Shown here: one piece after another, positions 28,719 through 30,666 of the stretch
Position numbering within the stretch: position 1 is the stretch's first letter
Layout: each line of letters opens with the position of its first letter
NCBI RefSeq assembly: GCF_001983935.1
Contig: NZ_CP017641.1
Span: 5,146,001-5,210,000, forward strand
Direction of reading: 5' to 3'
DNA: 64,000 bases
Source: Fuerstiella marisgermanici
GTDB taxonomy: Bacteria > Planctomycetota > Planctomycetia > Planctomycetales > Planctomycetaceae
The notes under the pieces: model-generated
What the model saw: the letters and a program-made list of their open reading frames with translations, nothing else
Database searches by the model: none
What the model was told of the DNA's origin: nothing
Made by a program: the position numbers and the translations under genes

Positions 28719-28737
28719 CGTTGTAACAACTACAACG
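28719..28737. promoter_or_regulatory. Candidate operator palindrome
   Basis: CGTTGTA-ACAAC-TACAACG is a perfect 7-bp inverted repeat with a 5-bp spacer. It lies in the divergent region between the Cys-rich gene (minus) and the candidate ncRNA (plus). Spacing and symmetry fit a dimeric repressor or activator site; the regulator is unknown. Confidence 0.5.
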
Positions 28738-28747
28738 TTTTTGCAGT

Positions 28748-28804
28748 GTAGAATTTGCAATCGAGGTCACTCAGCCGAGCGGTCGCCTCGGTCCGCGATT
28801 CTAC
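28748..28804. other. Long imperfect hairpin upstream of candidate ncRNA
   Basis: GTAGAAT...CGAGG at the left pairs with CCTCG...ATTCTAC at the right. The outer 7-bp and inner 5-bp helices are separated by a partly paired region. It could be part of a longer transcript or a DNA palindrome. A TATAAA at about 28840 lies between this and the hairpin array. Confidence 0.45.
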
Positions 28805-28861: not shown

Positions 28862-29157
28862 ACCACTTCCCGAAGTGGCCAGCCGTTGCAGTTACCCGAC
28901 GTTTGGCATCATCGTTGCAATGTCTATTGGGCAGAGAGAGACTGGTTCGGAGTGAGATCCTGAACCCACTGGCTGCCCTGAGAAAGCAGCCGCTGCCCCT
29001 GAGGCAGCCAAGCGATTGAGAGACAGTGGCTCGCCTGAGAAACGAGCCCGAGTCGAAGAGAGAGAGACGGGAGGTACGCTTTTCAGGCCTGAGAGACCTG
29101 AATGCCTCCAACCTGAAAAAGGCCATCGGATTCAAGGAATTCCGATCGGCCTTTTTT
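28862..29157 (+). ncRNA. Candidate structured ncRNA with repeated CCTGAGARA hairpin loops
   Basis: The region has no ORF with coding character but holds a series of perfect stems. They are CCACTTC/GAAGTGG (28863-28878), GGTTC/GAACC (28944-28966), GGCTGC-CCTGAGAAA-GCAGCC (28971-28991), GCTGCC-CCTGA-GGCAGC (28992-29008), GGCTCG-CCTGAGAAA-CGAGCC (29028-29048) and TTCAGG-CCTGAGAGA-CCTGAA (29082-29102). Stem sequences differ while the loops stay nearly the same, which points to selection on loop sequence. An intrinsic terminator ends the unit, 67 bases before the next start codon. The 5' end is not defined. No Rfam family is recognised by eye. Confidence 0.6.
29116..29156 (+). terminator. Rho-independent terminator of the candidate ncRNA
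   Basis: AAAAAGGCCATCGGA pairs with TCCGATCGGCCTTTTTT (one bulged C), followed by a T run at 29152-29157. It precedes the DUF1501 start by 67 bases, so upstream transcription should stop before that gene. Confidence 0.85.
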
Positions 29158-29223
29158 CATGCGCGCTGACGGCCTATGGTAGAATCAAATGACACTCACC
29201 GTTCATTCTGACCGAACGCCATC

Positions 29224-30666
29224 ATGCCACGAAACACCGATCATCATTGCCGCCGATACCTGTCGCTAAACGGAACTCGCCGCGACATGTTGACCAAATG
29301 TGCCACCGGTTTCGGTGCGGTCGCATTGGCCGGATTGCTAAACGATGCCCAGGCGGCGCCCGACCGTTCGACAAATCCCTTCGCGCCAAAGGAAACTCAC
29401 TTCGACGCGAAGGCCCGCAGCGTGATTTTCCTGTACATGGACGGCGGCGTGTCGCAGGTGGATTCCTTCGACCCCAAACCGCGGTTGGATGAGCAGGACG
29501 GGAAGCCGTTTCCAGTTAAGACCGAACCGACTCAGTTCAACAATATTGGCAACACATTGGCCAGCCCGTGGAAGTTTCAGCAATATGGCGAAAGCGGAAT
29601 CCCCGTCAGCGATCTGTTTCCACACGTGGCCAAACATGTGGATGACCTCGCCGTCATTCGTTCGATGGTGTCGAACTTTCCAGAACACACCAACGCTAAC
29701 TACTTTCTGCATACCGGACACGGCCAGCAGGGACGGCCGAGCATGGGGGCATGGTTCGGTTACGGCCTCGGTACCGAATGCCAGGACCTGCCGCATTACG
29801 TGATTCTGAATGGTGGCCTGATTCCGCCGGGCGGCCTCGACAACTTCGGAAGCGGTTTTCTGCCTGCCAGTTATCAGGGATCTGTCTTTGCGAATTCGAA
29901 CCCGCCAGTCGCAGACATCAAACGCCGCGAAGCCAGCGATGCACTGCAGCGACGTAAGCTGGACCTGATTCGCACGCTCGACCAGAAAACACTGGAACGC
30001 TACCAGCACAACGACCAAATTGAATCGGCCATCGCAAATTATGAGCTCGCCGCGCGCATGCAAATGGCCGTACCGGAACTCACAAATTTGCAGAACGAAA
30101 CTCAGGAAACTCAATCCGCGTACGGCATGCACGACGAGTTCAAGAACACTCAGACATTTGGCCGACAGTGCCTGATTGCTCGCCGTCTGGTCGAACGGGG
30201 AGTGCGGTTTATTCAGTTGACGTGCCCTGGCGGCAACGGCGATCGGTGGGACCAGCACAGCAATCTGAAGGACGGCCATACAAAGAATGCAAAGAGTGTC
30301 GACCAGCCCATTGCCGCATTACTGGCTGATCTCAAAGAGCGCGGCCTGCTGGATTCGACGCTGGTCGTGTTCACCGGTGAGTTCGGTCGCACGCCGTTCG
30401 CTCAGGGCAAAGACGGACGCGACCACAATCAGTATGGTTTTTCACTGTGGCTGGCCGGCGGCGGAGTCAAAGGCGGCACTGTGTACGGTGCGACGGACGA
30501 GTTCGGTTACAAAGCGGTCGAGAACAAGGTCGAAATTCACGACCTGCACGCGACCATGTTGCACCTTTGCGGAGTGGACCACGAACGCCAAACATACCGG
30601 TTTAGCGGTCGCGACATGCGGCTGACCGACGTCCACGGACACGTAGTCAAAGACGTGTTGGCCTGA
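29224..30666 (+). CDS. DUF1501 domain protein (exported, sulfatase-like fold)
   Basis: 480 residues. An N-terminal SLNGTRRDMLTKCATGFGAVALAGLL segment resembles a Tat signal. SVIFLYMDGGVSQVDSFDPKP is the DUF1501 opening, and the alkaline-phosphatase-like fold is suggested by TLVVFTGEFGRTPF and GRDHNQYGFSLWLAGGGVKGG. The C-terminus has HDLHATMLHLCGVDH. In planctomycetes these usually pair with a DUF1549/DUF1553 cytochrome-like protein; none is adjacent here. Enzymatic activity is unknown. Convergent with the thioesterase gene, with only two bases between stops. Confidence 0.9.
   Translation: MPRNTDHHCRRYLSLNGTRRDMLTKCATGFGAVALAGLLNDAQAAPDRSTNPFAPKETHFDAKARSVIFLYMDGGVSQVDSFDPKPRLDEQDGKPFPVKTEPTQFNNIGNTLASPWKFQQYGESGIPVSDLFPHVAKHVDDLAVIRSMVSNFPEHTNANYFLHTGHGQQGRPSMGAWFGYGLGTECQDLPHYVILNGGLIPPGGLDNFGSGFLPASYQGSVFANSNPPVADIKRREASDALQRRKLDLIRTLDQKTLERYQHNDQIESAIANYELAARMQMAVPELTNLQNETQETQSAYGMHDEFKNTQTFGRQCLIARRLVERGVRFIQLTCPGGNGDRWDQHSNLKDGHTKNAKSVDQPIAALLADLKERGLLDSTLVVFTGEFGRTPFAQGKDGRDHNQYGFSLWLAGGGVKGGTVYGATDEFGYKAVENKVEIHDLHATMLHLCGVDHERQTYRFSGRDMRLTDVHGHVVKDVLA

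Follow-up and report, generated by a model that had tools for sequence, protein, structure and literature searches.

A conserved Planctomycetaceae RNA with repeated UGAGA loops as a candidate decoy for an RNA-binding regulator

A locus of Fuerstiella marisgermanici carries what we read as a stand-alone regulatory RNA of the Planctomycetaceae that acts as a decoy for an RNA-binding regulator under sigma54 control, a reading to which we give a probability of roughly 0.6. The locus lies on the window, the 64,000-nucleotide stretch of DNA that was analysed, in a host genome (G000) of 8.92 Mb on a single contig. Its anatomy is conserved among relatives, its stems covary while its loops stay fixed, its upstream elements are conserved and similar hairpins occur in some mRNA leaders. 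The locus is a real, conserved RNA family for which no Rfam entry was found. The presentation of UGAGA in loop after loop suggests a sink for a regulatory protein.

The RNA gene is deduced to span ∼228 nt at 28930-29157, with its start and end set by promoter spacing, a conserved 5′ GAGAGA and the terminator. An earlier model-made annotation of the same DNA (the original prediction) had drawn the interval as 28862-29157; its first 68 nt precede the deduced start at 28930, and the remainder holds the RNA. The four hairpins that it named are all present where it placed them, as is its intrinsic terminator, found at 29114-29157. It overlooked a further hairpin (H0, 28944-28966), the promoter, the upstream dyads and the GAGAGA linkers at 28932-28942, 29017-29024 and 29058-29068. 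The dyads sit 157 and 182 bp upstream of the -24/-12 element in the window. The RNA would offer some five hairpin loops along with several linkers, and (U)GAGA is present in nearly all of them. A DUF1501 gene at 29224-30666 is the downstream neighbour. The features are as follows:

28721..28735, no strand assigned: upstream dyad 1, TTGTAACAACTACAA, a putative enhancer site for a sigma54 activator
28746..28760, no strand assigned: upstream dyad 2, GTGTAGAATTTGCAA, likewise putative, with the same dyad pattern
28903..28918, + strand: sigma54-type -24/-12 promoter, TTGGCA-TCATCG-TTGC (GG-N10-GC), its GG and GC invariant in alignments A2 and A3
28930..29157, + strand: inferred RNA of ∼228 nt, beginning 12 nt past the -12 element and ending at the T run
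28932..28942, + strand: 5′ leader, CAGAGAGAGAC, its GAGAGA kept among relatives
28944..28966, + strand: hairpin H0, loop AGTGAGATC; the relative L004 has the loop CCTGAGAAA here
28971..28991, + strand: hairpin H1, GGCTGC-CCTGAGAAA-GCAGCC, with a covarying stem
28992..29008, + strand: hairpin H2, GCTGCC-CCTGA-GGCAGC, variable and missing from several relatives
29017..29024, + strand: linker, TGAGAGAC, with no flanking stem found; the minimum free energy (MFE) fold of 28930-29160 pairs part of it
29028..29048, + strand: hairpin H3, GGCTCG-CCTGAGAAA-CGAGCC, with double changes in 6 of 6 pairs
29058..29068, + strand: linker, GAGAGAGAGAC, GAGAGA-type and outside the hairpins
29082..29102, + strand: hairpin H4, TTCAGG-CCTGAGAGA-CCTGAA, with clear stems in some relatives only; a scripted stem search found none around the H4 loop in L003, L006 and L007
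29114..29157, + strand: intrinsic terminator predicted from the sequence, AAAAAGGCCATCGG...CCGATCGGCC-T6

Chance does not readily produce such a cluster. In 28862-29157, four hairpins combine a stem of 6 bp or more with CCTGA in the loop, whereas 2000 dinucleotide shuffles gave 0.03 on average and never more than 1. Across the whole window, the top cluster of UGAGA hairpins within 300 nt is this same locus (four, on the + strand), and the best on the - strand is one. The MFE of 28930-29160 was below that of all 200 shuffles (z -4.28). The single MFE fold of this segment pairs the H3 and H4 stretches otherwise, and a longer MFE fold forms H1, H3 and H4 and leaves H2 unformed.

Relatives of the locus were collected in several ways. 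A blastn search found it in 7 of 57 other genomes, namely six of seven from the same genus (it was absent from G001) and one from another genus; these homologues were chosen without regard to the promoter. A pattern scan of further genomes returned 13 stretches, comprising six matching loci already found, five new members on reading and two hits without a promoter that were taken as chance and dropped (L010 and L021, from Akkermansia and Shewanella records). Members L014-L018 were found by a pattern that included the H1 loop, and later members by covariance models that included the promoter, H0, H1 and H3; the dyads, H4 and the terminator were part of neither the search pattern nor the models. 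The first covariance model, spanning promoter to H3, matched 36 of 170 family genomes, the host included, and left 134 without a match. Thirty of the matches were strong, one per genome, and six were weak; on reading, five of the latter look like divergent members and one (L057) is coding, lacks a promoter and was dropped.

A second model matched 40 of 397 class genomes; L071-L073, L075 and L076 were dropped as unconvincing on reading, although L071 does have a promoter-like stretch. A third matched 25 of 392 phylum genomes, 11 of them outside the family, and in the 4 of these 11 genomes that were read (L233, L234, L240 and L242) the promoter was missing at the match start. Within the family, L230 has a promoter-like stretch, yet no GAGA loops, and was set aside. 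Among the matches read, every member that convinces on its sequence belongs to the family, and some of these members come from genera whose loops differ clearly. Counts of strong members below refer to 29 complete ones, with the window in and L005 (cut by a contig end) and L052-L056 out. The original prediction had recognised no named family and held that an Rfam match would speak against it; Rfam gave no match for 28862-29157 at gathering score, and a relaxed search (E up to 10) gave four matches far below that score, the best at E 0.13 and none to a bacterial family. Searches of the open-licence PubMed Central literature brought up no title or abstract start describing such an RNA in planctomycetes.

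Selection has acted on the pairing of the stems. In a 35-sequence alignment, the ten H1 and H3 base pairs hold in 97.3% of cells and show 52 double changes, spread over nine of the ten pairs; none of 500 shuffles reached the observed pairing or the double-change count. Since the alignment was fitted to the H1/H3 structure, the control that counts most is the sliding of partners by 1-3 columns, which drops pairing to 18-36%. The loops stay fixed as the stems diverge, much as first proposed, and the stems are kept among relatives, where their loss had been named beforehand as a refuting result. The loop motif had been read as CCTGA, and here the relatives disagree, as the core conserved among them is UGAGA instead. 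It occurs in 3-7 copies per RNA in the 29 strong members against 1.27 expected, with 1-5 copies per RNA inside stems of at least 5 bp. Divergent members vary further. UUGGAGAG hairpins occur five times in L067 and once each in L068, L069, L077, L078 and L081, and L231 (G112) has four nearly identical hairpins GAUUGUGAGAGGUC; these divergent loops therefore leave GAGA as the common core. In L231, an upstream dyad and a -24/-12-like stretch (TTGGCACGGGCTTCGC) precede the hairpins.

The same alignments bear on the idea that the interval encodes a small protein or is a conserved spacer without function. Open reading frames can indeed be listed across it, the - strand having one of 122 aa. However, the spacing between conserved loops changes by lengths not divisible by three, the stems covary, and both the promoter and the terminator show conservation, which together make this idea extremely improbable and support the claim of a non-coding RNA gene.

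Conserved elements flank the RNA. The GG-N10-GC sigma54 element and a T run of at least 5 are each found in 29 of 29 strong members. Two dyads that fit TTGTA-N5-TNCA strictly, with T, G or C allowed as the first base, occur in 27 of the 28 strong members with enough upstream sequence, the window included; the sole exception is L006, whose second copy fails the pattern at its first base. The dyads are mostly spaced 25 bp apart, and their distances to the -24 element downstream are mostly ∼155 and ∼180 bp. Because they were in no covariance model, they provide independent support for homology. In a scan of 23 genomes, the tandem-dyad pattern was found in 17, at the RNA locus in each, with two further sites elsewhere and none for the reversed pattern; the pair occurs a single time in the host genome. 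Fourteen divergent members were read, and looser patterns detected a dyad in seven and none in the other seven, one of which is masked. The terminator is near-invariant in 12 aligned members, with a conserved bulge, and its sequence is the only copy in the host genome; some members of other groups end in different terminators. Gene context varies more, as no constant neighbour gene was found among 44 loci (many with only 1.5 kb of flank). In 12 of the 44 the RNA has a divergent deaminase gene, tadA-like, next to it (L002, L003, L007, L008, L014, L015, L018 and others), and a transglutaminase-like gene adjoins it in five divergent loci. The recurrent neighbours identified are not activators.

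These elements suggest a simple circuit, in which (i) a sigma54 activator would bind the paired upstream dyads; (ii) the bound activator would turn on the -24/-12 promoter; (iii) the resulting ∼228-nt RNA would present its UGAGA loops and linkers; (iv) these would capture an RNA-binding regulator; and (v) the regulator would thereby be drawn off hairpins of the same type in mRNA leaders, for example the leaders that precede small pilin-like membrane protein genes of related genera. Transcription of the RNA, the action of the activator, the existence of the binding protein and its titration are all presumed in this scheme. A more specific version, in which the regulator recognises UGAGA (and is neither a GGA-binding CsrA nor Hfq), each genome holds one decoy with a dedicated sigma54 activator, and the system acts on pilin-like genes in the Planctomycetaceae, is possible and is offered tentatively, at somewhat less than even odds.

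The leader hairpins came to light as second matches of the third model, L243 and L244, in the long leader of a gene for a small pilin-like membrane protein; this gene also has a sigma54-like element. A search with this protein matched 26 of 36 genomes, with 1-17 matches each. For five such proteins, Pfam and NCBIfam gave nothing above cut-off; among pilin-type profiles Flp1_like came nearest (E 0.07, below cut-off), and 'pilin-like' is therefore a label given by eye. Among 62 leaders picked by protein homology, 8 from six genera contain a UGAGA hairpin whose stem has 6 bp or more and 54 do not, against a mean of 0.72 (maximum 3) in 100 rounds of shuffling and 1.17 (maximum 5) for 29 permuted motifs, in statistics that treat leaders from one genome as separate though they are not independent. 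On the same footing, stems of at least 8 bp occur in four leaders, against 0.18 (maximum 1) for shuffles and 0.21 (maximum 3) for permuted motifs. The 62 leave out L247-L250 (found via the motif), L255, L256 and L266 (short upstream sequence) and L272. The small pilin-like genes include L247-L250, L258, L263, L279, L280, L282, L284, L286 and L308, some of whose leaders have UGAGA hairpins. A sigma54-like element lies upstream of L247-L250, L263, L279, L282 and L286, and none was found by pattern upstream of L280 and L284. The hairpins that L258, L263, L280 and L284 have in common, of the form GGCG-ACCUGAGA, may reflect shared descent.

Similar UGAGA hairpins in RNA and leaders suggest a shared RNA-binding factor, titrated as CsrA is by CsrB or RsmZ. 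The original prediction had raised titration as one option; the leader hairpins of other genera lend it indirect support, and titration itself stays an inference. A target in the host was not found, because the pilin-like query had no match in the host genome, the three intergenic UGAGA[AG] hairpins in 1.2 Mb of it are not above control motifs, and no hairpin was found outside ORFs at the 60 of 103 other CCTGAGARA sites examined in the host genome. Three of these sites have stems of 5 bp or more, each inside a long ORF. CCTGAGARA outnumbers its reversed form 106 to 38 in the host genome, an excess that is probably due to codon usage (Pro-Glu-Lys). Two known RNA-binding proteins were considered as partners and rejected. 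Hfq (PF17209) had no match in the host genome, with 5 of 14 control genomes positive, and TRAP (PF02081) had none in 10 genomes, with the B. subtilis control positive.

The leader hairpins also admit a reading in which they are processing or stability elements, such as sites for an RNase or for antitermination, that the RNA and some leaders share. They keep partly similar stems (GGCGACCUGAGA..CCGCC) across several genera, as a cis element might. Nonetheless, neither the 3-7 copies of UGAGA in a free RNA nor its dedicated upstream site is explained in this way, and we consider this reading very unlikely.

Base-pairing is a further reading. Qrr and LhrC RNAs carry redundant seed loops, and in an RNA of that kind the UGAGAA loops would target UUCUCA stretches of mRNAs by pairing. 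Repeated seeds would account equally well for loops that stay fixed while their stems diverge, and Qrr-type RNAs are compatible with a sigma54 promoter too. Within a 1.2-Mb sample of the host genome, the regions upstream of 849 genes, predicted roughly, were scanned for complementary words, each counted beside its reverse complement and its reversed form. TTTCTC gave 19 against 27 and 15, TCTCAG 13 against 16 and 13, and TTCTCAG 8 against 7 and 2, of which the comparison of 8 with 2 leans towards pairing. CTCAGG, the word singled out when pairing was first proposed, gave 20 against 19 and 18 upstream of these genes. With starts so roughly predicted, the words show no clear excess; base-pairing is therefore unsupported, and the proposal has gained nothing from the search. 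Moreover, Hfq was not found in the host genome, and the leader hairpins carry the same motif as the RNA and not its complement. We regard base-pairing as rather unlikely.

The binding protein of such a decoy could in principle be a CsrA paralogue, in which case the RNA would be a genuine Csr/Rsm decoy whose motif has drifted from GGA, still visible in the UUGGAGAG loops of divergent relatives, to UGAGA. CsrA paralogues are strongly expanded in planctomycetes, with 4-17 matches to PF02599 per genome in 40 of 40 genomes (the host, with 12, and 39 others). PMC12316311 reports that csrA is enriched among sigma54-dependent genes in Planctomycetia, and five divergent members besides L067 carry UUGGAGAG hairpins. 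However, the CsrA motif is GGA in a loop, according to PMC7366521, and no hairpin with 5 bp or more exposes GGA in any of the 29 strong members. L067, the richest in UUGGAGAG, is a weak match (E 1.5e-6) with no dyad by the patterns used. The paralogues examined by eye look canonical at the N-terminus and have an arginine close to position R44, and thus show no sign of altered specificity. Common upstream dyads for the RNA and csrA were rejected as well, as 49 of 51 csrA loci were readable and none had paired dyads, one had a single dyad, and a loose sigma54-like pattern lay within 450 nt in five. The single dyad, TTGTAGAAAATACAA, lies 125 bp upstream of csrA in G025 (L086) and resembles the RNA's putative enhancer sites. 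A drifted Csr decoy is unlikely in our judgement; a CsrA paralogue with shifted specificity is nonetheless the first candidate for the binding protein, as a candidate and not a conclusion.

Among known systems, the plan of the RNA is closest in kind to CsrB and RsmZ, in which hairpins alternate with linker copies of the motif. CsrB/CsrC and RsmX/Y/Z are likewise stand-alone RNAs with one short motif in several loops and linkers, a dedicated upstream site and a comparable motif in some mRNA leaders (here, those of relatives). They differ in their motif, which is GGA and not UGAGA; the promoter here is sigma54-type and the RNA has no Rfam match. The original prediction had drawn an analogy to CsrA sponges in plan and not in motif, and this holds, as the layout is similar and GGA is in no loop of the 29 strong members. 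According to PMC4353343, rsmY/Z have GGA loops and upstream 18-bp TGTAAG... sites, in contrast to the TTGTA-N5-TNCA dyads here. On the tests run, the RNA is not a member of the Csr or Crc families, and it looks built on the same plan; a decoy function is likely.

Other systems resemble it in part. CrcZ binds Hfq via A-rich motifs and crcZ sits behind cbrB, whereas here Hfq was not found in the host genome and the recurrent neighbours are not activators. CrcZ/CrcY titrate Hfq/Crc in Pseudomonadaceae; PMC6292655 describes a sigma54-dependent decoy RNA with a dedicated activator, CbrB. The likeness lies in the sigma54-type promoter, here in every strong member. It extends to other sigma54-dependent small RNAs, Qrr and GlmY/GlmZ, which act by base-pairing or by decoying RapZ; we know of no repeated UGAGA loops in either. 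ANTAR-binding decoys of the EutX/Rli55 type have hairpins that match leader hairpins, a resemblance also seen here. Unlike ANTAR sites, which are paired hexaloop hairpins, the loops of the planctomycete RNA are mostly ∼9 nt.

To our knowledge, protein-titrating RNAs are known mainly through the motifs of CsrA and Hfq, and a conserved RNA built on the same plan with a different motif would be a sign of a new recognition code. The RNA is itself a bait with which the binding protein could be caught. The tandem dyad could lead to the sigma54 activator, and hence to the signal. Finally, the RNA may account for one role of the numerous planctomycete CsrA paralogues, or it may reveal that this role belongs to another protein.
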